Below, piece after piece: positions 42,331 to 56,841 of a stretch of DNA of 64,000 nt (position 1 is its first letter; each line of letters begins with the position of its first letter). Below the pieces are notes generated by a model, which was not told the DNA's origin, searched no databases, and saw only the letters and a program-made list of their open reading frames with translations. The DNA lies in NCBI GenBank assembly GCA_026414545.1, contig JAOAIU010000060.1, forward strand, positions 1 through 64,000, in the 5' to 3' direction. The DNA comes from Candidatus Saccharicenans sp. (GTDB taxonomy: Bacteria; Acidobacteriota; Aminicenantia; Aminicenantales; Saccharicenantaceae). A program made the position numbers and the translations under genes.

Positions 42331-43395
42331 TCAGGCCGCCAGGGGAAGGCTGACAAAAAAAGTAACCCAGCGACCGGGTTCAGATTCAAACCAGATTCGG
42401 CCCCCGTGACTGTCGACAATCTTCTTGCAAATGTAGAGCCCAAGTCCTGAACCCTTGACCCCTTCCGTCCCCTGCTGCTTGAGTCGTTCAAACTTGCGGA
42501 AAAGCCTCGGCCCGTCTTCCGGCTTGATGCCCACCCCCAGGTTGTGGACAGAAAAAACCATCTGGCCATCCTTCTTTTCCAGCCCCAGCTTTATTTCGGT
42601 GCCTTCGGCCCCGTACTTAATGGCATTGCTGACCAGGTTACGGACCAGGATTTTAAGCAACCGCGGGTCGCCGCTAATCCTTACGTCCTGGGGAAAATTT
42701 TTGCTGATCGTCATCTTCTTAGTGTTACCCTGGATTTCAGGCAAAACCAGGACCTCCTCCACCACATCCTTAACAAAATAAATTTCCTCCTTGAACGAAT
42801 CCAGCTGGTTCAGTTCCATCTTCGACAGGTCCAGGTAACTGCGGATGATATCTTCCAGATATTCGCAGTTACGGATGATGGTTTCCAGAATTTTCATCTG
42901 TTCGGGAGAAAGCTGCCCGAAATAACCTTTATAGAGTGTGGAAGCGGTGGTATGCAAGGCCGAGACCGGGCTCTTTAGTTCGTGGGAAACAATGGCCATG
43001 AGGTCCAGCATGGTTCTTTGCTTGCCAGCCCTGGCTTCCAGGGCATTCTTGATAACTTCCCTGATTTCTTCGGGAGTGAATGGCTTGGGGATATAATCGA
43101 AGGCTCCATTTTTCAAGGCTTCCCTGGCCGTGTCCACGCTGGCATAACCGGTGAAGATGATCACCGTGGTATCTGGCCTGGATTTCCTGAGCCTGTTCAG
43201 GACTTCCATTCCGCCAATACCAGGCATTTTGAGGTCGGTGACCACGATGTCAAAGTCCTGATTGAGGGCCTTGCTCAGCCCCTCTTCCCCGGAGAGGGCA
43301 GTATCAATTTCGTAGCCCGAACCGGCAAAGATCCGGCGACAGCTCCGCAGGACTATTTCTTCGTCATCGATGAACAGGATTCGCGGTTGATTCAT
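42331..43395 (-). CDS. Receiver-histidine kinase hybrid
   Basis: 354 residues, soluble. Receiver domain first (acidic pocket ILFIDDEE, phospho-accepting Asp54, Lys104 in YIPKP), then HisKA with His138 (IVSHELKSPVSALHTT) and an HATPase domain with NLVSNAIKYG, VGIKPEDGPRLF and GSGLGLYICKKIVDSHGG. The order REC-HK lets it receive phosphate and transmit it onwards. Last gene of the long hydrogenase operon, 22 nt after the sensor kinase; it probably tunes that system. No DNA-binding domain is seen. Confidence 0.92.
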   Translation of the reverse strand: MNQPRILFIDDEEIVLRSCRRIFAGSGYEIDTALSGEEGLSKALNQDFDIVVTDLKMPGIGGMEVLNRLRKSRPDTTVIIFTGYASVDTAREALKNGAFDYIPKPFTPEEIREVIKNALEARAGKQRTMLDLMAIVSHELKSPVSALHTTASTLYKGYFGQLSPEQMKILETIIRNCEYLEDIIRSYLDLSKMELNQLDSFKEEIYFVKDVVEEVLVLPEIQGNTKKMTISKNFPQDVRISGDPRLLKILVRNLVSNAIKYGAEGTEIKLGLEKKDGQMVFSVHNLGVGIKPEDGPRLFRKFERLKQQGTEGVKGSGLGLYICKKIVDSHGGRIWFESEPGRWVTFFVSLPLAA

Positions 43396-43417: not shown

Positions 43418-45361
43418 TCACTCCACCGGCAGCTTTATCGTGAATTCGGTCCCCTCACCCACCTGGCTGCTGACGTCAATGGTTCCGTTGTGCCTCTTGA
43501 TCACTCCGTAGGCCATGGCCAGGCCCAGGCCCGTTCCCTTGCCTTTTTCCTTGGTGGTGAAGAAGGGCTCAAAAATTCTTTTCAGGTTTTCCGGGCTGAT
43601 GCCAACACCGGTATCGGCCACCCGGACTATCACCTGGTTATGTTCACGGTCATAAGAAGTTGATATGGTCAACTGCCCACCCTCCGGCATGGCATCGGCT
43701 GCGTTCACAGCCAGGTTGTTAATAACCGAGCGGAACTCGTCGGCGTCAACTTTTACTTCCGGAAGGTTCGGGTCCAGGTTCTTTATTATTTTTACATTCT
43801 GAAAGTTGACATGCTTTTCCAGCAGGCCCAGCACTTCCTCGATCAGGACGTTCAGGTTAGCTGCCATCCTTTCCGGCTTGTAGTCACGGGCAAAATCCAG
43901 CAGGCCGCGGACAATCTTTCGGCAGCGCAGCGTTTCTTCCCTGATGGTCCTTAAGTCTTCTTCGTAAGGGGTACCCTTCATTTCTTCCAGCAGCAGGCTG
44001 CTGTAGGTCAAAATACCGGTCAGCGGGTTATTGATTTCATGGGCGATACCCGAAGCCAGCCGGCCGACCGAGGCCAGCTTTTCCGAGCGGAGAATGGTTT
44101 TCTCGGCCAGTTCTTTAAGCCGGCGGTCCCGGTCTTCGATGGCCCGAACCATTTCATTGAAATGTTCTTCAACTTCCCGAATTTCGGCGCTCTCGTCGGG
44201 AGAGATGTCCAGCAGATGGTAATTTCCCCGGGCAATTTCAGCCGTAGCTTCGATCATCCGGTTGATGGGCCGGGTGTACAGGTTGACCAGGTAGGTCGAG
44301 ATGTAAATGGCAATCCCGGTCATCAGGAATATCAGAAGAAAATAAAGAATGGCTGTCCGCCGCAGGATGCCTGAAAACTTGGCCTCCAGGATGCCCACAT
44401 AGAGCATGCCCACGGGCTGATTTTCGATATCAGTCAGACGAGTATAGCCGGAAAGGTAATAATCGTTGACCACGAAAGCCCGGCCCAGCCAGTCCCGGCC
44501 CTGCTCATATACCTGGCGAAAGACTTCTTCCGAGACCAGGGTGCCCACCGCCCGCCGGCCGTTTCGGTCAACAACGTTGGTAGCTACCCGGACGTCTTCT
44601 ATGAAAATAGTGATGGTCCCGACGTCCTTCCCCCTTATTTTTTCTGCCTTGAAAATCAGGTTCTTGAACCGGTCCACGAAGCGGTCGTTGTTATTGAGCA
44701 AGACGGCCGCATAGAGAACTCCCACCAGGCGCCCGCTTTGAAAAATGGGAGAAACGGTTTTCAAAACCAGGGCTCTTTCTTCCATTTCCCGCTTCTGAGC
44801 TCTGGCCCTGGGTGTGGGGACTATGTTGATGAGCGTTCTCTCGGCCAGATCCGGTCCTTCATTTTTGATGTTTTCATAACCGAGGATGCCAGTTCCGGCG
44901 GCCGGCTTCCTGTTGGCCAGTACCCACTTTATATATTTGTAATGCCTGACGCTGTCGCCGTAAGCTGCAAAATTATTGGCTCTCACCAATATGGTGCCAT
45001 CCGGCTTGACCACGTTAACGATGTCGAAGCCAAATTCCTGTTTGATCTGAACCAGCTTATCAAACAGATACTCCCTGTTTCCAGAGGCTGTAGCGTTGAC
45101 TATTTCTGAAGTCCTGGCCAGGTATTCAACTATTCCAGCGCGGTTCCGGATTTCTTCCTGGTAGAGGTCGCTGATGGCCTTCAGGCTGTTCCTGACGTTG
45201 TCGTAAGCTTCCCTGATAACATTGCGATTAATAGAATTAACACCGAGGTAGATGGACATCGCTCCCATCAGGAAGACGATAGTCAGCAGACCAAAAATCA
45301 GCTTGAACCTGAGGCTGGATCTCAGGTAATCAAGTTTCCTGATGAGCTCCCCCAGCTTCAT
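43418..45361 (-). CDS. Membrane sensor histidine kinase with extracytoplasmic Cache-like domain
   Basis: 647 residues. Membrane spans at about 19-41 and 337-359 enclose a roughly 295-residue periplasmic sensor resembling a double-Cache domain; HAMP at about 360-412. HisKA with His441 ([12 protein letters not shown], the NtrB/ZraS-like subgroup) and HATPase with [21 protein letters not shown] and GTGLGLAM. Senses an unknown external ligand. It overlaps the response regulator gene by four bases and belongs to the hydrogenase operon. Confidence 0.93.
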
Positions 45362-45768
45362 TTTCGTCCTTCCAGGCTCCTGGAGATCTTTTCCAGGAGT
45401 TCGTCCACTTCTACGGGCTTGGTCAGGAATTCATTGCGTCCGGGCAGGAAGCTTTCTTCCTGGTTGAGGGAAAACCGGGAATTAGTGACCTGGTCGATGG
45501 CGGTCAGAATGATGATGGGAATATCCCTGAAAGCCCGGTACTTTGAATCTGGCCGCTCACTCCTGATTTTATAAACAGCTTCGAAACCGGCGGTATCGGT
45601 TTCCATCATGACATCCAGGATGACCAGGTCCGGCTTGACCTCCAGCAACTTCTTCAAGCCTTCATTTCCGCTGTGAGCAATTTCTACCTCATAACCTTTA
45701 AGACGGAGGACCTGTCCCAGGCTATCGGTCAGGTCGCGGTCATCATCCACCAGCAGAATCCTGGCCAT
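45358..45768 (-). CDS. Single-domain response regulator
   Basis: 136 residues, receiver domain only. Acidic pocket Asp8-10, phospho-acceptor Asp52 (LVILDVMM), Lys117 in FLTKPVE. A polar insertion (about 93-112) precedes the last helix. ATG 45768 with GGGAGG upstream is preferred to a longer frame that enters the hydrogenase subunit gene. With no output domain it must act by protein contact or phosphorelay, probably with the two kinases that follow. Confidence 0.9.
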   Translation of the reverse strand: MARILLVDDDRDLTDSLGQVLRLKGYEVEIAHSGNEGLKKLLEVKPDLVILDVMMETDTAGFEAVYKIRSERPDSKYRAFRDIPIIILTAIDQVTNSRFSLNQEESFLPGRNEFLTKPVEVDELLEKISRSLEGRK

Positions 45769-45769
45769 G

Positions 45770-46336
45770 TCATTTCCTCCCGAATTCCAGGCGGTCATCC
45801 TCTTCGCCCAGCAGTTTGTAGATGACATTATTCACTTCGAAAAGCCTGGCCCGGCGGTACATATCGACCGGAAATTCCATCTGCTTGAGCTCCACCGGGG
45901 CCACTTTTTTATCAACCAGCCCCAGGGCCAGAGCCACCCCGTAGATGATGGCTTCCGGGCGGGGTGGACAGCCCGGTATGAAATAATGAACCGGGATGGC
46001 TTTCTCTCCGCCGCCGGTTACATTATAAGTATCGTACCAGCAACCGCCGCCGATGGCGCAGGAGCCTATGGCAAAAACCAGCTTGGGAGCCGGGACGGCC
46101 TGGTAGGCCTTTTTAACCAGGGGGAGGGTGGGCCGGGTCACGGCTCCCGACAGCAGGATGGCGTCGGCCTGGCGGGGCGAGCCCACCAGCCTGATTCCAA
46201 ACCTTTCCACGTCGTAGTATGGAGTCAGGATGTTCAGGATTTCTATGTCGCAGCCGTTGCAGGCCCCGCTGTTGCAGTGATAGACCCAGATGGAACGGCG
46301 AAAGGCTCTGCCGGCCAGCTTTTTTAAGATGGTCAT
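45770..46336 (-). CDS. [NiFe] hydrogenase small subunit (HycG/EchC/NuoB-like)
   Basis: 188 residues. Binds the cluster proximal to the active site: Cys21, Cys26 and Cys29 in CNSGACNGCD, with later Cys in GSCAIGGG and PGCPPRPEAI. This short NuoB-like form is typical of group 4 membrane hydrogenases. ATGA overlap with the ferredoxin gene upstream, one base from the response regulator downstream. It passes electrons between the ferredoxin-like subunit and the large subunit. Confidence 0.93.
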   Translation of the reverse strand: MTILKKLAGRAFRRSIWVYHCNSGACNGCDIEILNILTPYYDVERFGIRLVGSPRQADAILLSGAVTRPTLPLVKKAYQAVPAPKLVFAIGSCAIGGGCWYDTYNVTGGGEKAIPVHYFIPGCPPRPEAIIYGVALALGLVDKKVAPVELKQMEFPVDMYRRARLFEVNNVIYKLLGEEDDRLEFGRK

Positions 46337-46890
46337 TTCTCCAACCTCCCCGGCCTTTCATAGGTAACGGTTTTCTCCAGCTCATCAGGAGAGAACTCGG
46401 CCGTGCTCCGGCGAATAACCTTCCGGGCTTCCAGGCAATCATAGCGGTAACCGAGAGCACTAAGCCTGTCTATGTAATTCTTAATCTCCAGGTCATAGCA
46501 GCGGCCGCAGCGCTGGCAGGTCATCATGAACAGCTCAATGGTCTGGGTGATGTCCTGGCGATTATCGGTGGCCAGCTCAAACCTGTCGCTCATGGTGATG
46601 GCTTTTTCCGGGCAGAGGTCGGCGCACCTTCCGCAGTAGGTACAGCGCGAAGAATCGTAAAGAAGGATCCTGAGCTCCTGGCAGATATCCCTCAGAAAAA
46701 TGGTCCGGGCCGGGCAATGGCTGGCACAGCCGGCGCAGCCTATACACTTGGCATGGTCCCAGAGGGGCTGGCCCCTGAAGCCCTCGGGGGCCGGCCTCGG
46801 CTCGAACGGATAACGAAGGGTTACCACTCCAGCCTTAAAGGAGATCGCCAGTTGCTTGATTTTATTCCACAGCCACATCTCAGGCTTCAC
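46333..46890 (-). CDS. Hydrogenase 4Fe-4S ferredoxin-like subunit (HycF/NuoI-like)
   Basis: 185 residues. Two [4Fe-4S] motifs, CIGCAGCASHCP and CTYCGRCADLCP, as in HycF/NuoI, plus a third CQRCGRC of CxxCxxC type. The last may hold an extra iron site or be structural. It conducts electrons toward the small subunit. It overlaps that gene by four bases and lies 21 nt behind the NuoH-like gene. Confidence 0.92.
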   Translation of the reverse strand: MKPEMWLWNKIKQLAISFKAGVVTLRYPFEPRPAPEGFRGQPLWDHAKCIGCAGCASHCPARTIFLRDICQELRILLYDSSRCTYCGRCADLCPEKAITMSDRFELATDNRQDITQTIELFMMTCQRCGRCYDLEIKNYIDRLSALGYRYDCLEARKVIRRSTAEFSPDELEKTVTYERPGRLEK

Positions 46891-46911
46891 CTTTCATCCA
46901 GCTATCCTGGC

Positions 46912-47811
46912 CTACCATCCCCTGACTCCAAGGCCAACCGCCAACAAGGCCAGCAACAACAGTATCCCATAGAATTTGAGAGCCTGGTCCATCCGAAAGC
47001 GGGGATGGGTAGCCCCTATCACCGAAATTAGCACAAACAAAGCCAGGATGAGAACTGTCTGAATGACCAGACATAAGATAATATTACCCGGCAGCATGAA
47101 CCCCAGGAACCCGGCCACGAACAGCCAGCTGTAAAACATCCTTTTGAGGTTCAGAGTATAACGGAACAGAGCATAATTAGGCCCGCTGTATTCCACATAG
47201 GGCCCTTCCAGGATTTCAACCTCGGCTTCTGGAATATCAAAAGGCTGCCTGGAAACAAAAGCCTGCAGAGCTACCAGGTAAACCGCCATCATCAGGAAAT
47301 AAGAAAGACCCCGGTTAGTTGAAACCCCTTCGGTCACCGACACCAGGCCCAGGCTTCCGGCCCGAACGACGCCGAGGATCAGGGTCATGGCCAGGACCGG
47401 TTCCAGCATGATGATGGTCATCATTTCACGGCTGGCACCCACACTGGCAAAAGGATTGCCGCTGGCCAGGGCTCCCACCAGAATTGAAAAACCGCCAAGG
47501 GTCAGGAAATAAATCAGAGTCATCAAGTCGGAAGAATGGGCCAGGAAGCTGCTCTGACCGGCCAGGGGGAGCAGGGCGATGGCCGACAGAACGGAAGCAA
47601 GGGCGAGAAGCGGAGCCAGACGGAAAACTGGATGCCCGGCGGCATTTAAGTTTTCTTTTCCCAGGAGCTTTAAGAGGTCAAGATATGGCTGGTAGAGGGG
47701 TGGGCCCTGTCTGGACTGAATCCTGGCCGTGATTTTTCGCATCACCCCTTCCAGAAAGGGAGCCAGCAGCAGGAAATAGAGCAGGTTGATGACCACAGCC
47801 GCAACTTTCAT
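46912..47811 (-). CDS. Hydrogenase membrane anchor subunit (HycD/EchB/NuoH-like)
   Basis: 299 residues, eight predicted membrane spans. Conserved QSRQGPPLYQPYLDLLKLLGKE near the N-terminus (motif QGPPLYQPYLDLLKLLGKE) and the acidic FDIPEAEVEILEGPYVEYSG loop (motif PEAEVEILEGPYVEYSG) that contacts the quinone/proton-channel entrance in complex I. Anchors the soluble hydrogenase arm and transmits conformational change to the antiporter-like subunit. Overlaps the large subunit gene by four bases. Confidence 0.93.
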   Translation of the reverse strand: MKVAAVVINLLYFLLLAPFLEGVMRKITARIQSRQGPPLYQPYLDLLKLLGKENLNAAGHPVFRLAPLLALASVLSAIALLPLAGQSSFLAHSSDLMTLIYFLTLGGFSILVGALASGNPFASVGASREMMTIIMLEPVLAMTLILGVVRAGSLGLVSVTEGVSTNRGLSYFLMMAVYLVALQAFVSRQPFDIPEAEVEILEGPYVEYSGPNYALFRYTLNLKRMFYSWLFVAGFLGFMLPGNIILCLVIQTVLILALFVLISVIGATHPRFRMDQALKFYGILLLLALLAVGLGVRGW

Positions 47812-49499
47812 CTTCCGGACCTCTTGGCGCGCGAAATGTTTTCCAGCTCCTGCCTGGAGAGCAACCTGGCTTTCCCCGACCGGTTCTCCACCACCAGCAC
47901 CCGGTCGGTGCAGGAAATGCAGGGGTCAATCTGGCCGACGATGATGGGGAAATCGGCCAGCTTGTTGTTCAACAGCATGGAGGGAACCGCCTGCAGGTTG
48001 GGATAAGTTGGGGCCCTGACCCGCCAGCGTTCGGGCCGGTTTTCATTACCGGTCAGGACAAAATGCACGGCCTCTCCTCTCGGGGCTTCGACCAGCGACA
48101 GGCCCTGCCGGCCAGCCGGTATTGGTCCTTCCAGTTCAACCGCCAGGGGTTCGTTTTTCGAAAGTTTTTCCAGTCTATCCAGGCACTGGTTGATAATTTT
48201 GATGGCTTCGTAGACTTCCTTCACCCTGACCACCAGCGTTCCCCAGACATCACCGGAGTCGGCCACAGGGACCTCAAACTCCACTTCGTCGTAGGCGGCG
48301 TAGGGATGGTCCCGGCGGGCGTCAATTTTCAGCCCGCGGGCTCTGGCCACCGGCCCTACCAGGTTCCATTTCACTGTTTCTTCCTTAGAAAGATACCCCA
48401 CGCCCCGGGTTCTTCTGTGAATGGTCCGATCCTTGAGGATGGCTTTTTCCAGGGCCTGCATTTCCCTGTCAACTTCTTCCAGAGTAGACCTGATATCCCG
48501 CGAGCTCTCCCGGTTGATATCGCGGCGAACTCCGCCGATTATCACCAGGCCATAGGTCTTACGGTTCCCGGTCAGTCTTTCGGCCAACCACATTATTTTT
48601 TCCCTGATTCTCCAGGCCTGCATGAAGACAGTATCAAAGCCGATCAGGTGCCCGGCCACTCCCAGCCACAGCAGGTGAGAATGCAGCCTTTCCAGCTCCA
48701 GGGCCACCATCCGGATAAACTCGGCCCGCCTTGGAATACTGATACCGGCGGCCGCTTCCACCGCCTGGGCGTAGTTGACCGCATGAACCGAACCACAGAT
48801 GCCACAGATCCTTTCAGCGACAAAGGGTACGTCGTTATAGGTCAACTCGGTCTGGGCCAGTTTCTCGATTCCCCGGTGGGTCATAAAACCACGATACTCG
48901 CAACCCTTGATGTCCTCCCCGTCCACGTAAACTGAAAAATGGGCCGGCTCATGCAGGCTGGCATGGAAGGGGCCAAAGGGAATAATGGAGGTGCCCGGCG
49001 GGGCTTCCTCCAGCCGGAAGGCCACTTCCTCGGCTGCGGGCGGCATCAGGTCATGGGGGACTTCCCGGCGCAGTGGATAAATACCTTCAGGCCAGTCATC
49101 AGACAGCACCAGGCGTTTCCGGTCGGAAAGGTTCCTGAATTTCAGGCCGAGAAGGTCCTGGTATTCTCTTTCTGACCAGCCGGCCCCGGGAATAAAGGGT
49201 GTCAATGAATCAAATTCAGGGTTGTCCCCGGGAGCAAAAGTTCTGAGGGCCACCAGCAAGGAATCTCGGTCAAAGGCAAAGGTGTGAACCAGACCAAATC
49301 CCCGGCCATCCTTTCTGGCATCGTAGCCGATGCCCATCTGGTAGCGGGCACCCTGATTCATCAGGCCTGAGGCGGCCGCGGTCAGAGCCTCCCTTTTCAG
49401 GTCGATAAAAAGCCGTCCCGGAAAAGGGGTTTCAGCCGAAATGAGATTACCACCCAGTTCTTTCTCCAACCAGCGACGGAGTTTCTCTGCCCGGCTCAT
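47808..49499 (-). CDS. [NiFe] hydrogenase large subunit, HycE-type (NuoC+NuoD fusion)
   Basis: 563 residues, matching E. coli HycE (569). Residues 1-150 are NuoC-like (RLFIDLKREAL ... YQDLLGL). The NiFe centre ligands are intact: Cys232 and Cys235 in RICGICGSVHA, Cys527 and Cys530 in DPCISCTDR. After Arg533 a 30-residue basic tail follows, exactly like the C-terminal peptide that HycI removes from HycE; the protease gene lies two genes upstream. It therefore looks catalytically competent for H2 production or uptake. Group 4 (FHL-like) by architecture. Confidence 0.95.
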   Translation of the reverse strand: MSRAEKLRRWLEKELGGNLISAETPFPGRLFIDLKREALTAAASGLMNQGARYQMGIGYDARKDGRGFGLVHTFAFDRDSLLVALRTFAPGDNPEFDSLTPFIPGAGWSEREYQDLLGLKFRNLSDRKRLVLSDDWPEGIYPLRREVPHDLMPPAAEEVAFRLEEAPPGTSIIPFGPFHASLHEPAHFSVYVDGEDIKGCEYRGFMTHRGIEKLAQTELTYNDVPFVAERICGICGSVHAVNYAQAVEAAAGISIPRRAEFIRMVALELERLHSHLLWLGVAGHLIGFDTVFMQAWRIREKIMWLAERLTGNRKTYGLVIIGGVRRDINRESSRDIRSTLEEVDREMQALEKAILKDRTIHRRTRGVGYLSKEETVKWNLVGPVARARGLKIDARRDHPYAAYDEVEFEVPVADSGDVWGTLVVRVKEVYEAIKIINQCLDRLEKLSKNEPLAVELEGPIPAGRQGLSLVEAPRGEAVHFVLTGNENRPERWRVRAPTYPNLQAVPSMLLNNKLADFPIIVGQIDPCISCTDRVLVVENRSGKARLLSRQELENISRAKRSGR

Positions 49500-51376
49500 G
49501 AAATTACCCCTTTTCCCGAAGGTACAGACCCCGGCAACTCTTCATCATCAACCACCACATTTTTATTAGCTCCGGTCCACCGGAAAAATTTCTTCAGGTC
49601 GGAAAACATGTTGCGGTCGGCATAAACATTATTCTTGTTGAGGTCCTGGTAGCCGCAGAGCCAGGCCGGAACCACGGTTTCCTTAGCCCCGGCCGATTGC
49701 CTGACCAGGCGGGCCAGGAAAGTCAGAACCAGGAGCAGGACCAGCATGGCCAGGGGGGCGGCCGCGGCCAACAAAGCTGGCCCATCGAAAATCTGGAGCC
49801 CCAGCGGGTTCGTCTTCAAACCGTCAGGGCTTACTCCTGGCAGCAAAAAGCCCTCGGCTGCGGAGAGGCTGCGGCCGATGAGCCTGACGTAAGCCAGCGG
49901 CAGGAAGGCCTGGCTCAGGCAGACAGCCCCCAGGAAAATTTTTGGAATCAGAAGTGAAGCCGGCACTTCCCTGATTTCTTTTTTCAGTTTCCAGCTGGCT
50001 CCGGCCGAGGTAAAAGCCAGCCCGAAAAATTTCACGTAGCAGGCCAGAGTAAAGGCAGCGGTGAACAGGGCCACTATCCCGGCCAGGGTTAAAGGCAGGC
50101 TATCTTTACCAGCCAGGAAATTCCCGGCAATCATCAACCACTTACTAACAAAACCGCTGGAGGCCGGCATCCCGGAAATAGAATAGGAGGCCAGGGCCGC
50201 CAGGATAGCGGTAGCAGGCATGAAAGACAGGAGGCCGCCCAGCCGGTTAAGGTCCCGGGTCCCGGTGGCATAGAGTAAGCTCCCACCGGTCAGGAAAAGA
50301 AGACTCTTAAAAACCCCATGATTCAGGCTGTGATAAACAGCGCCCGTAAAGATAACCCCGGCCAGCGGCCATCCCGAATGCCAGGCTACCAGGCTGCTGC
50401 CCAGGGCAAAGATGATGTAGCCTACCTGGCCGATAGAACTGTAGGCCAGAAGCTGGAGATAATCGCTCTGTTTGATGGCCTGCACCGTGCCGATAAACAG
50501 GGTCAACGTTCCGACCACCAACAGCACCTGGCCCCACAGGCCGGGGCTGAAGCCATTTTCGGCTCCTCTGGCCACGAAGAAAAATATCCTGATCAGCCCG
50601 AATACGCCCGTTTTTTCCAGGATGCCGGCCAGCAGGGCAGCAACCGGCGGGGAGGCTGTGGAGTAAGCCCCCGGTATCCAGAACTGTCCGAGCGGGAAAA
50701 TGCCGGTCTTGAGCCCGAAACCCAATAGAAGCAGGCCGAAAAAAATCGCCGCGGCAACCGGTCCCGAACCAGATAATTTTTCGCCGATTACAGCCAGTGT
50801 ATCGCCGTAATGATACCCTTTAGCCAGGAAGGCCGCGCCGGTTATCAGCAACCAGGCCGATTCCATGAAAGCCAGATAGACCAGGGCTGGCCTGGCTGAA
50901 AGCTTCACCGGCCTGCCCCACCTGACCAGAAAATAAGAGGAAACGGCCATTAATTGCCAGGCCAGGAAAAATCCCGGGCCGAGGTCATCCACCGTCAGCA
51001 GGCCCACCAGGCCAGCAATAAAAACAGGCAGAGCCAGGTAGATTTTCCTGGCTGTCCGGGCCTCGGTTCTTTCATAAAAACCATAAGCAAACAGAGTGGA
51101 GCTCAGGACCAGGACGGAAAGAAGGAGCAGAAAAAGGGCTGACAAACCATCGAGCAACAGGGGCAGATGAATTCCAGCCAGATTTATTTCCAGTTCTACC
51201 GGTTGGCCTCCGCCCAGGATCATGACCCCCTGCCAGGCCAGGAAAAAGCAGCTCAGGGAGTTCAGGAGCGTGCCGACCAGACGGATCGCGTAAGCTCTCT
51301 TTCCCAGGATAAGAGTGGCCAGGAAAGACAGCAGCAGGTTAATTAAACCCAGCCAGAGAGCCTCAGTTCCGGTCAT
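49496..51376 (-). CDS. Hydrogenase antiporter-like proton-conducting subunit (HycC/HyfB/NuoL-like)
   Basis: 626 residues, about 15 membrane spans. Proton_antipo_M signatures: GLKTGIFPLGQFWIPGAYSTASPPVAALLAG (motif KTGIFPLGQFWIPGAYSTA), Lys-containing central helices, YHSLNHGVFKSLLFLTGG and FVSKW. The C-terminal CGYQDLNKNNVYADRNMFSDLKK resembles the HycC/HyfB tail. It couples electron transfer to proton or sodium movement. Only one such subunit is encoded, as in Hyc, whereas Hyf and Mbh complexes have two or more. Four-base overlaps on both sides. Confidence 0.93.
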   Translation of the reverse strand: MTGTEALWLGLINLLLSFLATLILGKRAYAIRLVGTLLNSLSCFFLAWQGVMILGGGQPVELEINLAGIHLPLLLDGLSALFLLLLSVLVLSSTLFAYGFYERTEARTARKIYLALPVFIAGLVGLLTVDDLGPGFFLAWQLMAVSSYFLVRWGRPVKLSARPALVYLAFMESAWLLITGAAFLAKGYHYGDTLAVIGEKLSGSGPVAAAIFFGLLLLGFGLKTGIFPLGQFWIPGAYSTASPPVAALLAGILEKTGVFGLIRIFFFVARGAENGFSPGLWGQVLLVVGTLTLFIGTVQAIKQSDYLQLLAYSSIGQVGYIIFALGSSLVAWHSGWPLAGVIFTGAVYHSLNHGVFKSLLFLTGGSLLYATGTRDLNRLGGLLSFMPATAILAALASYSISGMPASSGFVSKWLMIAGNFLAGKDSLPLTLAGIVALFTAAFTLACYVKFFGLAFTSAGASWKLKKEIREVPASLLIPKIFLGAVCLSQAFLPLAYVRLIGRSLSAAEGFLLPGVSPDGLKTNPLGLQIFDGPALLAAAAPLAMLVLLLVLTFLARLVRQSAGAKETVVPAWLCGYQDLNKNNVYADRNMFSDLKKFFRWTGANKNVVVDDEELPGSVPSGKGVIS

Positions 51377-51912
51377 TCGCCTTTCTCCCTGTTTTCTTGG
51401 TTTTTATTGCCATCTACCGCGAGCTCATTCGTTTTATCTTTGATAAGCCTTTCCACCAGGGAAACAAGTTCCATGGCCGCCTTCTTGACCACTGGCGACA
51501 GCCCATGGCCAAACTCCATGGACTCCGGGACCACTCCCAACAGATAAACTTTTTTCCCGCTTTCCTCGATAATTCTGGCCGTCAGCCGCAAGGACAGCTT
51601 ATGGGTGGAAGCTATCTGGCCGATTTCCTCCAGTTCTTCCAGCGGACCCAGAACGACCGTGCCCGGCGGAGCTGCCAGAATGACGGCGTCCACAAAAACC
51701 ACTTCGCTCACATCCATCCTGGAGATGGGGAAAGCATAATTTTCTGGCACATCTTCCACAGTCATCAATCTTCCTTCCGGAAGCAGAGCCTTCTCCCTGA
51801 GCTTTTCTATGAAATAGGGACCGAAGCCATCGTCGCCGCGCAGATTGTTGCCAATGCCGACCAGACAGGTCTTCCCGGCCAGAACTTTTTGCAGCAGCTC
51901 CAGTGATTCCAT
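51373..51912 (-). CDS. hycI: Hydrogenase maturation endopeptidase (HycI-like)
   Basis: 179 residues. GIGNNLRGDDGFGPYF (about 19-34) with the metal-probing Asp, VEDVPENYAFPISR and FVDAVILAAPPG correspond to HycI-family sites; THKLSLRLTARIIEE and LLGVVPESMEFGHGLSPVV match the remaining conserved blocks. It clips the C-terminal peptide of the large subunit after Ni insertion. ATG 51912 is one base from the stop of the reductase gene; longer frames are not used. Its presence supports an active hydrogenase. Confidence 0.93.
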   Translation of the reverse strand: MESLELLQKVLAGKTCLVGIGNNLRGDDGFGPYFIEKLREKALLPEGRLMTVEDVPENYAFPISRMDVSEVVFVDAVILAAPPGTVVLGPLEELEEIGQIASTHKLSLRLTARIIEESGKKVYLLGVVPESMEFGHGLSPVVKKAAMELVSLVERLIKDKTNELAVDGNKNQENREKGE

Positions 51913-51913
51913 C

Positions 51914-52762
51914 TTAGATCTGTTCTCCCAGAGTCTTAATCTGCCTGTAGGTATAAACCGGGCCGTCAACGCAGACCAGGGTCCGGCCGATGGCACAATG
52001 CTGGCATTTTCCGATGCCGCACTTCATGTGCCTTTCCAGGGTGGAATAAATCTCCTGTTCCTTTATTCCCTTCAATTTCAATTCTTTGATAACAGCGTTG
52101 AACATCACCGGCGGGCCGCAGACAAAAGCCACGGTATTTTCAGAGGGGAGATTAAGTCCGGCCACCAGCTGGTTGACAAAGCCCACCCGGCCGTCCCACC
52201 CAGGTTCCGGCCGGTCGATGGTGAAATAGGTTTCAAAATCCCGAGTGGCCTGCCACTCCCGGATGGAATCCTTGTACATCAGGTCCCGGGAAGTCCTGGC
52301 CCCGTAGACCAGGATCAGCCGACCGAATTCCTGGCGGTGCTGCAGGACATGAACGATGGAAGACCGGAGGGGAATAAGGCCGATCCCGCCGGCCACGTAA
52401 ATGACATTCTTGCCCTTGATCTCTTCAAAAGGAAAGCCGTTGCCGAACGGCCCGCGAATGCCGATTTTATCTCCGGGCTGAAGCTCATGCAGGGCAGCGG
52501 TCACCTTGCCCACTTTCCTGACCGAGATATGCTTCCGGTCGTTCTCCGGACTGAACGGCAAAGAAACGGCAAACTCACCGGCCCCGAAGACGGTGCACAT
52601 GATGAACTGGCCGGAACGGATCTTGAAGGCCTGCTCTATTTCCTGCCGGTCAAAGGCGAAATAAAATGTCCTGACGTCAGCAATTTCCTCGCGGATTTCC
52701 AGCACTGTGGCCACTTCAGGCACGGTTATGATGGGCACCAGCTTGTTCTCCATCTCCCTCAT
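51914..52762 (-). CDS. FAD/NAD(P)-binding reductase subunit (HydG/AsrB-like)
   Basis: 282 residues. FNR-like: an FAD domain with SGQFIMCTVFGAGEFAVSLPFSP (motif GQFIMCTVFGAGE), an NAD(P) domain with YVAGGIGLIPLRSSIVHVL and FVCGPPVMFNAVI, and a C-terminal [2Fe-2S] site with four Cys in CGIGKCQHCAIGRTLVC. This is the gamma (diaphorase) subunit type of sulfhydrogenases and anaerobic sulfite reductase. Start ATG 52762 overlaps the upstream stop (ATGA); ATG 52753 is the alternative. It links the complex to NAD(P)H, with reduction of the pyridine nucleotide or its oxidation undetermined. Confidence 0.92.
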   Translation of the reverse strand: MREMENKLVPIITVPEVATVLEIREEIADVRTFYFAFDRQEIEQAFKIRSGQFIMCTVFGAGEFAVSLPFSPENDRKHISVRKVGKVTAALHELQPGDKIGIRGPFGNGFPFEEIKGKNVIYVAGGIGLIPLRSSIVHVLQHRQEFGRLILVYGARTSRDLMYKDSIREWQATRDFETYFTIDRPEPGWDGRVGFVNQLVAGLNLPSENTVAFVCGPPVMFNAVIKELKLKGIKEQEIYSTLERHMKCGIGKCQHCAIGRTLVCVDGPVYTYRQIKTLGEQI

Positions 52763-53817
52763 TCTCCGGTTATCTCTCTCCGGATGTAGGTCACCACATT
52801 TGGCAAACCGATATCCCCCGGGCAGACCCGGGCACAACGGCCGCAGCCCACACAGCCCGGCCGCAAGTATTTTTTGGACTGGGAATAGGAAAGTTTGCAG
52901 AAAAATCTCTTGTTGCGACGGTCTTCTACCGGTTTCCTCGGATTGTGGTCCCCGGCCATCTTGGTATAGCCCTCGAACGAACAGGAATCCCAGGTGCGGA
53001 CCCGGTCGGTCTGCCCGTCCACCCGATTGACCTCTTCCACGTTGAAACAGGAACAGGTAGGACAGACAAAGGAGCAGGCCCCGCATTCAAAGCACTGGTT
53101 GCCTATGTATTCCCAGACCTCCGGTTTGATAAAGCCCGTGGTCAAGCGGTTGGTGGCTCGGGATACCCAGGCCTTATTTTCCAGCGCAAAGCTATCGAAG
53201 GAAGAAACAGACTCATCAACGATTTTCTCGCGCAGGGACGCGGCCTCGGGTCCGGCCGGCTGCAGGCCGAGTTCTTCCACCAGCTTCTGCCCCTTTCTTG
53301 AGCCGACCTGAACCAGGTAGCCCTGCCCGGCAAAAGTCAGGTCCAGGTCAAATCCTTCCCTGGCAGCCGGACCGCTGTCGGTGCAAACGCAAAAGCACTG
53401 GGGGAAGGGCCGGACACAGGTATTAGAAATGAGGAATAACTTTTGCCGGTGTTCCAGATAGACCTCATCAACAAACTCCTGCCAGAGGAAAAACCGGTCC
53501 AGGCAGAGAATACCGTTCAGGTCACAGGCTCTCAGACCGACCAGGGCCTTTGGCTCAACCTTATCTATTTTTTCAATCGCAACTTTCTGAGAATCCCTCT
53601 CATAAAGATACCTCAGGATTTCTTCATAGTGGGGAAAAAGAACATGCTTGGGGGGATTATATGGAATCGCCGCCTGCAGGTCCAGCCGCTCCGGGACCTC
53701 CAGCCGGTCAAACACCACCTCGCCCGAGATTTCGTCCCGTCGCGGTCCATAAACCGAATAACTTTCAGCCAGCCTGCGGGCCAGCAACTTTACCTGATCC
53801 CCGGGTAGCCAGTACAT
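52759..53817 (-). CDS. 4Fe-4S dicluster electron-transfer subunit (HydB/AsrA-like)
   Basis: 352 residues. Central Cys-rich region FECGACSFVCPTCSCFNVEEV (motif CFECGACSFVCPTC) and a second CVGCGRCARVCPGDIG near the C-terminus, each binding [4Fe-4S]. The N-terminal half (LVGLRACDLNGILCLDRFF; ISNTCVRPFPQCFCVC) is the beta subunit type of sulfhydrogenase and AsrA. ATG 53817 with GGAG six bases upstream. Placed between the molybdopterin subunit and the flavin subunit, it can carry electrons among them. Confidence 0.93.
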   Translation of the reverse strand: MYWLPGDQVKLLARRLAESYSVYGPRRDEISGEVVFDRLEVPERLDLQAAIPYNPPKHVLFPHYEEILRYLYERDSQKVAIEKIDKVEPKALVGLRACDLNGILCLDRFFLWQEFVDEVYLEHRQKLFLISNTCVRPFPQCFCVCTDSGPAAREGFDLDLTFAGQGYLVQVGSRKGQKLVEELGLQPAGPEAASLREKIVDESVSSFDSFALENKAWVSRATNRLTTGFIKPEVWEYIGNQCFECGACSFVCPTCSCFNVEEVNRVDGQTDRVRTWDSCSFEGYTKMAGDHNPRKPVEDRRNKRFFCKLSYSQSKKYLRPGCVGCGRCARVCPGDIGLPNVVTYIRREITGE

Positions 53818-53820
53818 GAC

Positions 53821-55839
53821 TTACTCCAACTTCTCCAGCCGGACGGGCAGGAAAAATTCTTCGTTCTTTTCAAGTTCCGATACCTGGCGGTGCAGAAACC
53901 CCGAAACCATCTCTTCAATAAAATAAGGAATATAAAGCATGCCCGGCAGGATGTCGGGCGAAATGCGGACAGCCAGGCTGATTTCGGCCGCCTCCGAAAC
54001 TATCCTCACCGGCTGTTTCTCCCGCAACCCCAGGGCCCGGGCATCGTCTGCCGAGATTTCTACAAAGCCTTTCGGATAAAGCAGCAGGAGGGCGTTGTAT
54101 TCTCTTTTCGGAATGAAAGTCCTTTTCATAACCGAGTTCTGATGCCAGAAATAATTACTCCGGCCCACGACCAGCTTGAAAGGAAACCGGTCTTCAAACC
54201 CGGAAGACAAACCCTTCAACTGCTCTCGGGTCCTGCCAAATATGAACTTGAACCTTCGCCCAGGCTCCCCGGCCAGGGGAAATTCCGTTCCGCCGGGATT
54301 TTGCTCATCAACTGGCCATTTTATACCCAGGCTGGCTCTCAATTTATCATAGCTGAGACCTGAGTACTGGGGGACAGTCCTGCTGATCTCGGCCATAACT
54401 TCCTCGGCAGATTTATAAGCCCAGGGGTGCCCCAGTGCGCCAGCCAGCTCGCTCAATATTTCCCAGAGAGGCCTGATTTCTGAAGGCGGCTCAACTTTTT
54501 TCTGGCTCAATTGCACCCGTCTTTCTGAATTGGTATAGGTCCCGTCCCCCTCCACATAATTGAGCCGGGGAAAAATTACACTGGCCAGGCCGGCAAAAGC
54601 ATTTCGGTAGGCTCCGAAATAAACCACAAAATCCAGCTCTTTTATCCGGCTGGCCTGGCGGATGATTTCTTCATCATGGTCCACGACCAGCAGGGCCCGG
54701 AGTGATTGATCTTCCTGGAGACAGGCCCCGACGCTCTTTCCTGGCCACCGGTCCAGCCTGACCTGCCAGAGTTCCTCAAATCGTTTCCAGCTATCACCCC
54801 TATCCGTCGGCAAATAGCCGGGCAGAAAAGCTGGAGATACTCCCATGTCCAGGCTTCCCAGCAGGTTGCTGATACCGGTGACCGGGCACAGTCCGCCGGC
54901 GGGGCGGACCAGCTTGCCGGTCATAAGGAACAGATTGAATAGGGCTGACATTGAGCGTCGGTCCAGGCTCTGGATGCCCACGGGATAAAAAGCGTAAGCT
55001 GACTCTGATTCATAAAATTTTCTGGCCAGCCCAACTATTTCCTTCTCATCGACCCCGGTTAGCTCTGAGGCCTGCTTGAGGTCCAGGGACTCCAGGTACT
55101 CAAAATACTGGCTGGCATTTTCAACCCTTTCTCCAAGATGATTACCATTGACCAGGCCTTCAGTCTGCAGAGCCCGAGCCAGGGCTTCGAGCAACAGCCA
55201 GGTGGTACCGGGGTTCGGCCGGAGGTGCTTCTGGCTGAGCCTGGCCATCTGGGTCCTTCGAGGAGAAATCGTGACCAGGAAGGCCCCCGACCGGCTGGCA
55301 AAATGAATCTCGCTGGCAATTATGGGGTTTTGTTTTGTCAGATCGCCCCCCACCACCATGATAAAATCAGCCTGCCTTAACTCCGACAGGGAAGCGGTCA
55401 TGGCCGGCCAGCCACAGCCTTCCAGAAGTATCCTGGCGCTTTCCTCCAACCCGGCATCCGAGCTCAGGCTGAGGTTATTGCTTTTCATGACCGCCCGGGC
55501 GAACTTTCCGAACAGATAATTTTCCTCGTTAGAAGCTCTGGGGGAGCCCAGGAAGGCTACCTCGTGCCCGGAAAAATTTTTTAGACGACGGGCGGCAAAA
55601 TCTATGGCTTCATCATAAGAAACCGCTCGGTACCTGTCACCTTCCCTGATCAACGGCCGGGTTATTCTTTCCTCCGTCTGCAGGAGTTCGTGAATGTGCC
55701 AGCCGCGGACGCATAAACGGCCGCGACTCAGGGGATGGCCGGGCAGGGGATAAACGCCGCGGACCCGGTTGTTCTCTACCTGAAGCAGGTGTCCGCAACC
55801 GGTGCCGCAAAAATTGCAGATACCGCGATGATAAGGCAC
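53821..55839 (-). CDS. Molybdopterin oxidoreductase subunit without catalytic Cys/Sec
   Basis: 672 residues. N-terminal [4Fe-4S] ligands Cys8, Cys11, Cys15 and Cys43 (CNFCGTGCG; GRLCVRG), then the molybdopterin domains and a C-terminal MoCo-dinucleotide-binding domain (VGRSNYFWHQNSVMKRT ... VEISADDARALGLREKQPVRI). Aligned with E. coli FdhF by eye, the catalytic Sec140 position is Gly130 and the following His is Leu; the Lys after Cys42 is Arg45 here. No in-frame TGA is present. So it is not an ordinary formate dehydrogenase. It may be NuoG-like (structural/electron-transfer) or use an unusual substrate. GTG start at 55839 with GGAGG upstream. Confidence 0.88.
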   Translation of the reverse strand: MPYHRGICNFCGTGCGHLLQVENNRVRGVYPLPGHPLSRGRLCVRGWHIHELLQTEERITRPLIREGDRYRAVSYDEAIDFAARRLKNFSGHEVAFLGSPRASNEENYLFGKFARAVMKSNNLSLSSDAGLEESARILLEGCGWPAMTASLSELRQADFIMVVGGDLTKQNPIIASEIHFASRSGAFLVTISPRRTQMARLSQKHLRPNPGTTWLLLEALARALQTEGLVNGNHLGERVENASQYFEYLESLDLKQASELTGVDEKEIVGLARKFYESESAYAFYPVGIQSLDRRSMSALFNLFLMTGKLVRPAGGLCPVTGISNLLGSLDMGVSPAFLPGYLPTDRGDSWKRFEELWQVRLDRWPGKSVGACLQEDQSLRALLVVDHDEEIIRQASRIKELDFVVYFGAYRNAFAGLASVIFPRLNYVEGDGTYTNSERRVQLSQKKVEPPSEIRPLWEILSELAGALGHPWAYKSAEEVMAEISRTVPQYSGLSYDKLRASLGIKWPVDEQNPGGTEFPLAGEPGRRFKFIFGRTREQLKGLSSGFEDRFPFKLVVGRSNYFWHQNSVMKRTFIPKREYNALLLLYPKGFVEISADDARALGLREKQPVRIVSEAAEISLAVRISPDILPGMLYIPYFIEEMVSGFLHRQVSELEKNEEFFLPVRLEKLE

Positions 55840-55920: not shown

Positions 55921-56433
55921 TCAGTCTTGTAAACTCTCCTGGCCTATCCGGCCGATAAACAGCTTCAAGAGGTAACAAACATTCAGCAGGGAGGACAGGC
56001 CCCCCAGGAATCTTTCCTTTACCATGCCCTTGGGCAACTCATCGACGATGGCCTTCAGCCCGTCCAGAGAAGCCTGGAGCTGCCCGAAGCCAGCAGCCAG
56101 TTCGGGTCCCTGGCCAGACCCGCTCAGTCCCGCCACCAGACCGGCGATGTTTTCGGGCTGGTCAAAAGCCTGGCGGAAAAAATCTTTTAACTCTCTCTTC
56201 ATTCCGGCCATGGATTTTTCCAGGAGGCAGAACCGGGTTAGCTGATAGCCCAGTCTGACTTCTTCCAGATTCCTCTGGACAAATTTTTCTGGATACTTAT
56301 CGAAGTAAGCCTGGCCCAGAGCCTCCATCTCTTCCCGGTCGAACCGGAATTGTCCTTCCAGTCGTCTGACCTGAAGGAAAAATCCCTGAAGGTCGGGCTC
56401 GAGGCGGAAGATTTCGGCCAGGGATTTATCCAT
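55921..56433 (-). CDS. Hypothetical protein in hydrogenase operon
   Basis: 170 residues, mostly helical and acidic, no membrane span or Cys cluster. Conserved-looking blocks: EALGQAYFDKYPEKFVQRNLEEVRLGYQ and DELPKGMVKERFLGGLSSLLNVCYLLKLF. Not recognised. It lies between the first response regulator and the molybdopterin subunit (81-base gap), so a role in sensing, assembly or maturation of the complex is plausible but unproven. Confidence 0.55.
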   Translation of the reverse strand: MDKSLAEIFRLEPDLQGFFLQVRRLEGQFRFDREEMEALGQAYFDKYPEKFVQRNLEEVRLGYQLTRFCLLEKSMAGMKRELKDFFRQAFDQPENIAGLVAGLSGSGQGPELAAGFGQLQASLDGLKAIVDELPKGMVKERFLGGLSSLLNVCYLLKLFIGRIGQESLQD

Positions 56434-56463: not shown

Positions 56464-56841
56464 TCAGGCTTTTTTCCTGTGTTTTTCCAGCACGCTGAGC
56501 AGCAGGTCAAAATTTACTGGTTTCTGAAAAACGCCATTAAAGCCAAGCTCATCCAGGCCGATGGTTCTGGCCGTAGCTTCACCTATGGTGCTAAGAAGGA
56601 ATACGGGCAACTCCGGACGTTCTTCTTTAATGACCTTGGCCACCTTGGCTCCGGCGTCTATATCTTCCATCATCATGTCGCACAGGACGATGTCAGGGTT
56701 AAGCCGGCGGAAAAGCTCCAGGCCCTCCTTGCCGCTCAGGGCCGTGGCCGTTTCATAACCGCTGGCTTCCAGAATGGCCTTGACCGAAACGCAGATGGCC
56801 GGGTCATCATCTATTACCAGGACCTTGGTTTTATCGGGCAT
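56464..56841 (-). CDS. Response regulator, receiver domain only
   Basis: 125 residues. Acidic pocket DDDP (11-14), phospho-acceptor Asp55 (IVLCDMMMED), Lys107 in FQKPVN. Probable first gene of the hydrogenase operon, with an extended -10 promoter just upstream (56869-56877). It lacks an output domain, so it may serve in a relay with the kinases encoded at the operon's far end. Confidence 0.88.
   Translation of the reverse strand: MPDKTKVLVIDDDPAICVSVKAILEASGYETATALSGKEGLELFRRLNPDIVLCDMMMEDIDAGAKVAKVIKEERPELPVFLLSTIGEATARTIGLDELGFNGVFQKPVNFDLLLSVLEKHRKKA

Follow-up and report, generated by a model that had tools for sequence, protein, structure and literature searches.

The window analysed here, 64,000 nucleotides (nt) from Candidatus Saccharicenans sp. 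(GenBank assembly GCA_026414545.1, contig JAOAIU010000060.1, positions 1 to 64,000 of the forward strand), carries on its minus strand nine co-directional genes, running from 55839 to 45770, for a membrane-type [NiFe] hydrogenase core, a HydB/HydG-type diaphorase and a molybdopterin protein, Mop, of the formate dehydrogenase alpha (Fdh-alpha) family. Assignment by Pfam and NCBIfam models (Table 1) confirms the Hyc-type core (HycC, D, E, F and G) and the maturation protease HycI proposed in the initial annotation of this DNA. It likewise upholds the presence of HydB- and HydG-type subunits, while the reported lack of HycB agrees with BLASTP, by which none of the gene products matches E. coli HycB or HyfA. 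No further gene lies between the nine in the gene list of the locus. They are closely packed, mostly by 4-nt overlaps as first described (five of the eight junctions), whereas HydG/HycI overlap by 8 nt and the last two junctions are gaps of 3 and 21 nt. The limits first drawn, 45770-55839, do enclose the nine genes but proved too narrow, since the co-directional run extends from 56841 to 42331 with a largest gap of ~81 nt. Homologues of NuoB, NuoC, NuoD, NuoH and NuoI and of antiporter-type subunits stand together in this one cluster, as in group 4 membrane [NiFe] hydrogenases; the large and small subunits are HycE- and HycG-like, and group 3b counterparts are absent from the locus. Maturation machinery is present, with HycI inside the cluster and HypD in the genome.

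Table 1. Genes of the co-directional run, with the evidence for each assignment (aa, amino acids; TM, transmembrane helix)
Feature	Coordinates	Strand	Evidence
Mop/FdhF-like subunit, 672 aa, Fdh-alpha family	53821..55839	-	Pfam/NCBIfam, active-site census, dN/dS
HydB/AsrA-type Fe-S subunit, conserved Cys set	52759..53817	-	Pfam/NCBIfam, nearest structure 9NEZ_B, Cys conservation
HydG/AsrB/PyrK-type FAD-NAD(P)-[2Fe-2S] subunit	51914..52762	-	Pfam/NCBIfam, motif conservation, nearest structure 9NEZ_C
HycI-type hydrogenase maturation protease, 182 aa	51373..51921	-	TIGR00072, 107 bits
HycC-like antiporter-type membrane subunit	49496..51376	-	PF00361, alignment with E. coli HycC/HyfB, residue census
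HycE-like [NiFe] large subunit, fused 30 kDa and 49 kDa domains	47808..49499	-	PF00329 and PF00346, tree
HycD/NuoH-like membrane subunit	46912..47811	-	PF00146
HycF/NuoI-like ferredoxin subunit, two [4Fe-4S] motifs and an extra CxxCxxC	46333..46890	-	2x Fer4
HycG/NuoB-like small subunit, proximal [4Fe-4S] ligands	45770..46336	-	PF01058
Receiver-only response regulator directly after hycG	45358..45768	-	PF00072 only
Cache-HAMP-HisKA-HATPase sensor kinase	43418..45361	-	Domain models; synteny
REC-HisKA-HATPase hybrid kinase	42331..43395	-	Domain models; synteny
up170, 170-aa all-helical protein, family-less	55921..56433	-	Synteny, AlphaFold2
Second receiver-only response regulator, upstream of up170 (Aminicenantes)	56464..56841	-	Domain models; synteny

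Conservation and distribution of the cluster

Sixty relatives were sampled, and in the 24 with a readable cluster the order is fixed as up170-mop-hydB-hydG-(hycI)-hycC-hycE-hycD-hycF-hycG, except that five clusters (L050, L052, L054, L055 and L057) gave no hycI match between hydG and hycC, and L057 none for up170 ahead of mop. When 84,980 species genomes were scanned with a large-subunit alignment, 80 loci were returned. About 57 have the order seen in the window (the compact form) and come from Aminicenantes/Acidobacteriota, Spirochaetota, Bdellovibrionota and Pseudomonadota, the last represented by Rhodocyclus, Lamprocystis, Chitiniphilus, Chitinibacter and Chitinilyticum; these named loci and the 24 sampled relatives are overlapping sets. 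About 16 others, from Gemmatimonadota, Armatimonadota, Acidobacteriota and further groups, possess extra antiporter-like subunits (the Hyf-type form), and several of their contigs are too short to show HydB, HydG or Mop. Because the same order recurs in the 24 relatives and the ~57 compact loci, the conserved arrangement is far above chance. The proposal that core, diaphorase and Mop make up one conserved unit, for which synteny in relatives had been named beforehand as the possible point of refutation, is thereby sustained. At E < 1e-180 the large subunit occurs in 12 of 297 genomes sampled evenly from the host's phylum, so that the distribution is patchy.

The large subunit and its phylogeny

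HycE of the window, 40% identical to its E. coli namesake, contains the motifs RICGICGSVH and DPCISCTDR with all four nickel-ligand cysteines, and both Ni-binding CxxC motifs (RICGIC, DPCISC) are also kept in the relatives. In a maximum-likelihood tree, with branch supports given as pairs, the compact large subunits form one clade (100/99) and those of true formate hydrogenlyases (FHLs; E. coli, Pantoea, Rhodovastum and Azospirillum) a separate one (100/100); a 99/99 branch separates the compact clade from the FHLs, on whose side the archaeal sequences group. A further group (100/97) comprises the Hyf-type large subunits other than L130, which has a long branch. The root is uncertain because the outgroup row is the second group 4 hydrogenase of the host genome, not NuoD, and sits on a very long branch. 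Bacterial reference FHL loci carry HycB-like genes, three plasmid loci among them also fdhF, whereas in E. coli fdhF occupies a separate locus. The earlier description of an FHL-like hydrogenase needs correction in that the large subunit falls outside the true FHL clade.

The molybdopterin subunit

Aligned to E. coli FdhF, whose numbering is used for the catalytic positions, Mop keeps the [4Fe-4S] ligands C8, C11, C15 and C43, and the Fe-S cysteines are present in all copies. What it lacks is the full set of a catalytically competent FdhF, namely selenocysteine (Sec) or Cys140, His141, Lys44 and Arg333: in every compact copy Lys44 is replaced by Arg, position 140 is Gly or Trp, Arg333 has become Thr, Ala, Pro, Val or Ser, and Gln335 an aliphatic residue (some contigs are counted twice in this census, as in the selection analysis and the HycC census below). 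As a control, FdhA of Thermococcus Mfh-type clusters keeps the equivalents of K44, U140, R333 and Q335. Hyf-type Mop copies are more variable, and none has the full catalytic set. Putative pterin-contact positions, which were not derived from a structure, are mostly changed. Sec at position 140 of Mop was considered and rejected, the alignment being ungapped there and the residue Gly.

The mop gene is intact and under purifying selection (ratio of nonsynonymous to synonymous substitution rates, dN/dS, 0.13), its product scores best against the Fdh-alpha model (402 bits, under the 666-bit cut-off of that model), and near-invariant residues concentrate at 1-60, the Fe-S site, and at 541-600, with few near the former active site. 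Near-invariant motifs include Arg45-Gly-Trp47, Trp565-His566-x-Asn568 and Arg579-Glu-Tyr581, some of these residues falling in alignment columns of the former cofactor site. Catalytic residues lost and Fe-S ligands retained are the NuoG-like pattern; rather than accommodating a second substrate, Mop is probably a pseudoenzyme of the NuoG kind. The unknown substrate assigned to this subunit in the initial annotation finds no backing, the catalytic residues being gone in every compact copy.

The diaphorase and the membrane arm

HydG comprises FAD, NAD and [2Fe-2S] domains and is best matched by the sulfhydrogenase gamma model, HydB by sulfhydrogenase beta/AsrA. The GGIG and CGPP motifs and C248, C253, C256 and C264 of HydG are conserved in compact and Hyf-type forms, and the HydB cysteine set in compact and distant Hyf-type forms, the 53 compact loci used for cysteine conservation (and for the receiver below) being named loci only. 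Among solved structures, HydG is closest to the gamma subunit (9NEZ_C) and HydB to the beta subunit (9NEZ_B) of P. furiosus sulfhydrogenase 1. An NAD(P)H partnership is established for the sulfhydrogenase HydB/HydG family, and since the motifs are kept and sulfhydrogenase 1 is nearest, the analogy supports NAD(P)H as the redox partner here too.

Within the membrane arm, the TM5 Glu of HycC is replaced by Gln (Gln141 in the window) in every compact copy, as judged by census and by alignment with E. coli HycC/HyfB; that Glu is present in E. coli HycC/HyfB, in the Hyf-type forms and in archaeal homologues. Compact HycC keeps the TM7, TM8 and TM12 lysines and a His (Lys223/Lys255/His349/Lys412 in the window), so that of the TM5 Glu and TM7 Lys pair of ion-pumping antiporter-type subunits the Glu is lost and the Lys kept. 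E. coli HycC itself has no TM7 Lys, and FHL-type subunits are therefore variable in this respect. The TM5 Glu is important for pumping in complex I. Because the sole antiporter-like subunit has Gln there in all compact copies, ion pumping, which had been suggested for the assembly, cannot be assumed and is not established. In Hyf-type relatives (L117-L141), HydB, HydG and Mop are paired with further antiporter-like subunits, and the TM5 Glu is retained.

Signalling genes and up170

In each of the 53 compact loci that are sequenced far enough, hycG is followed by a receiver-only protein; among the Hyf-type loci the same holds for 4 of 11. The phospho-acceptor Asp of the receiver is kept in 53 of 59 copies and is Glu in six, Rhodocyclus and Chitiniphilus among them, while Thr and Lys hardly vary; the copies make up a distinct subfamily, recognisable by common ETDTAGFE and RFSLN..SFLP-like motifs. 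The Cache-HAMP kinase and the REC-kinase come next in many loci, the Cache-HAMP sensor kinase being conserved downstream in Aminicenantes and in many Spirochaetota loci. Because the receiver of the window has no DNA-binding domain, direct protein contact or a phosphorelay appears more likely than control of transcription. The up170 gene is conserved upstream of mop and was detected only in Aminicenantes copies; its product has no Pfam or NCBIfam match, and the AlphaFold2 model (pLDDT 92) is all-helical. A role as a known Mo-enzyme chaperone was rejected, no fold in the PDB matching at E 0.001 (best 0.48).

Hydrogenases elsewhere in the host genome

The host genome (2.5 Mb, 93% complete; the window is on contig C29) has three further hydrogenase loci, their types judged by eye from gene content. 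L060 (G000:C8:55001-75000) encodes another group 4 [NiFe] hydrogenase, which has antiporter-like subunits and the motifs CGIC and DPCICC, and most relatives have matches ~41-45% identical to the large subunit of the window; L061 (G000:C9) is group 1-like, and L062 (G000:C29:84000-99000) is Hox-like, with a NuoEF-like protein and hypA/hypB. Given these three loci, ferredoxin-derived electrons may be handled by other hydrogenases of the same genome.

Proposed function and its alternatives

From gene content, conserved order and the residues kept and lost, we infer, with fair but by no means complete confidence, that the products of the block form a single [NiFe] hydrogenase, anchored in the membrane and linked to NAD(P)H, with Mop as a pseudoenzyme scaffold or wire. 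Electrons would pass between NAD(P)H and H+/H2 by way of HydG (FAD, [2Fe-2S]), HydB ([4Fe-4S] clusters), HycF (two [4Fe-4S] clusters), HycG (the proximal [4Fe-4S]) and the NiFe site of HycE, with HycD and HycC as the membrane arm. Mop, presumably descended from a formate dehydrogenase, would have kept its [4Fe-4S] cluster, lost its Mo-site chemistry and come to serve between diaphorase and hydrogenase as NuoG does in complex I, and the receiver protein and kinases of the same run probably regulate the hydrogenase. The most likely role of such a complex would be to keep NAD(P)H and H2 in balance in an anaerobe that lives by fermentation, probably in syntrophy, with the reaction near equilibrium at low H2 pressure. 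The H+/H2 couple, at about -414 mV under standard conditions, rises to about -300 mV at 10 Pa H2 and so comes near the potential of NAD(P)H, which makes reversible near-equilibrium operation plausible in syntrophic settings.

Several points speak against this interpretation. Transfer from NADH to H2 is uphill under standard conditions, and the electrons of HydG may come from another carrier. A reshaped cofactor site may exist in Mop, because the near-invariant Arg45-Gly-Trp47, Trp565-His566 and Asn568 align with the former active site and Gly-His at 140/141 is kept by most non-Saccharicenans copies; the host genome, moreover, carries moaA, moaC and moeA. These three genes were not found in four cluster-bearing genomes (G019, G034, G046 and G056), in each of which the sole MoCF match looks CinA-like by length, an absence that may be an assembly gap or a real oddity; taken as proof of a cofactor-free Mop it was weakened to suggestive, since the same genomes encode other proteins of the dimethyl sulfoxide (DMSO)-reductase family with signals resembling those for twin-arginine translocation (TAT).

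Were Mop still able to oxidise formate or another small substrate, the whole would be an FHL-like complex in which HydBG forms a side path towards NAD(P). The Fdh-alpha match, the retained Fe-S motif and the production of molybdopterin by most cluster-bearing genomes lean that way, but with Sec/Cys140, Lys44 and Arg333 absent from all compact copies and the former active-site region poorly conserved, we regard it as very unlikely; FHL membership itself was rejected on the Mop active site, the missing HycB and the tree position of the large subunit. Ion translocation, by contrast, is compatible with the NAD(P)H-linked hydrogenase proposed above and would merely add to it, yielding a complex I-like pump that evolves or oxidises H2. 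The HycC/HycD arm, the lysines of TM7 and TM12, which every compact copy conserves, and a Hyf-type sister form with both the TM5 Glu and further antiporter-like subunits argue for it, the Gln found at TM5 in 100% of compact copies against it, and we put its chances at somewhat under even. A complex that bifurcates or confurcates electrons among ferredoxin, NAD(P)H and H2 would suit a flavin subunit among many Fe-S clusters, and confurcation would presumably solve the energetics of making H2 from NADH; yet the kin of HydG are sulfhydrogenase/PyrK diaphorases, not a known bifurcating flavin subunit, and the separate group 4 hydrogenase could serve ferredoxin, so that we think this unlikely. Assembly as one complex is a prediction from the genes, which leaves room for a membrane hydrogenase adjoining a separate, soluble HydBG-Mop oxidoreductase, but overlapping genes, an order invariant across phyla, the position of hycI between both gene sets and a hydrogenase devoid of HycB make this highly improbable.

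If the NAD(P)H-linked hydrogenase is real, genomes bearing the block risk being credited in annotation with a formate hydrogenlyase, although the 'formate dehydrogenase' encoded next to the hydrogenase would very probably be unable to oxidise formate. It would represent an NAD(P)H-fed membrane hydrogenase that bears on how uncultured fermenters, in the deep subsurface and in anaerobic reactors, balance H2, and would parallel the way in which the NADH module of complex I came to include a dead Mo-protein. The block is testable in its cultured carriers, Rhodocyclus purpureus, Lamprocystis purpurea, Chitiniphilus, Chitinibacter and Chitinilyticum.

Comparison with known systems

HydDB equates group 4a with FHL and describes group 4f as 'formate-coupled (putative)' (PMC5037454). 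With E. coli FHL-1 and FHL-2 (Hyc/Hyf; HydDB group 4a) the cluster shares the HycC, D, E, F and G equivalents and HycI, but it has neither HycB nor an active FdhF, includes HydB/HydG, and its large subunit belongs to a separate clade. P. furiosus sulfhydrogenase 1 (group 3b; PDB 9NEZ) shares HydB and HydG and is NAD(P)-linked, yet is soluble, with group 3b large and small subunits and neither a membrane arm nor Mop. The Thermococcus Fdh-Mfh/Mhy systems (group 4b type) likewise combine a formate dehydrogenase-type subunit with a group 4 hydrogenase, whereas they keep the active-site residues, have several antiporter-like subunits and give no HydBG match.

The initial annotation recognised no described complex with this gene set. 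Literature searches of open-licence papers found one earlier mention only, an 'enigmatic' group 4 hydrogenase of Saganbacteria RX5A, accompanied by asrA/asrB, by Mrp-like subunits and by a Mo oxidoreductase that defied classification (PMC6349859), so that a similar set had been named, although not analysed in this way. Group 4 hydrogenase, asrA/asrB, Mo oxidoreductase and antiporter-like subunits are common to both; the RX5A set has, besides its Mrp-like subunits, a cooF-like gene, was compared with Mbh, and was described without active-site or signalling analysis. Judged from its description, it is possibly nearer to the Hyf-type form.

Complex I, finally, shares an NAD(P)H flavin module set on a core of NuoBCDHI and antiporter-type subunits, together with a catalytically dead Mo-protein homologue (NuoG); the putative complex of the window differs in its predicted active NiFe site, a flavin module unrelated to NuoEF, a Mop related to Fdh-alpha and a single antiporter-like subunit. 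That this would be a second, independent invention of complex I logic, in which a pseudoenzyme derived from a formate dehydrogenase connects a NiFe core with an unrelated NAD(P)H flavin module and a dedicated receiver tunes electron flow to a sensor-kinase signal, is an idea we advance tentatively and consider doubtful in its full extent. By analogy, the cluster appears to be an independent counterpart of respiratory complex I that handles hydrogen.

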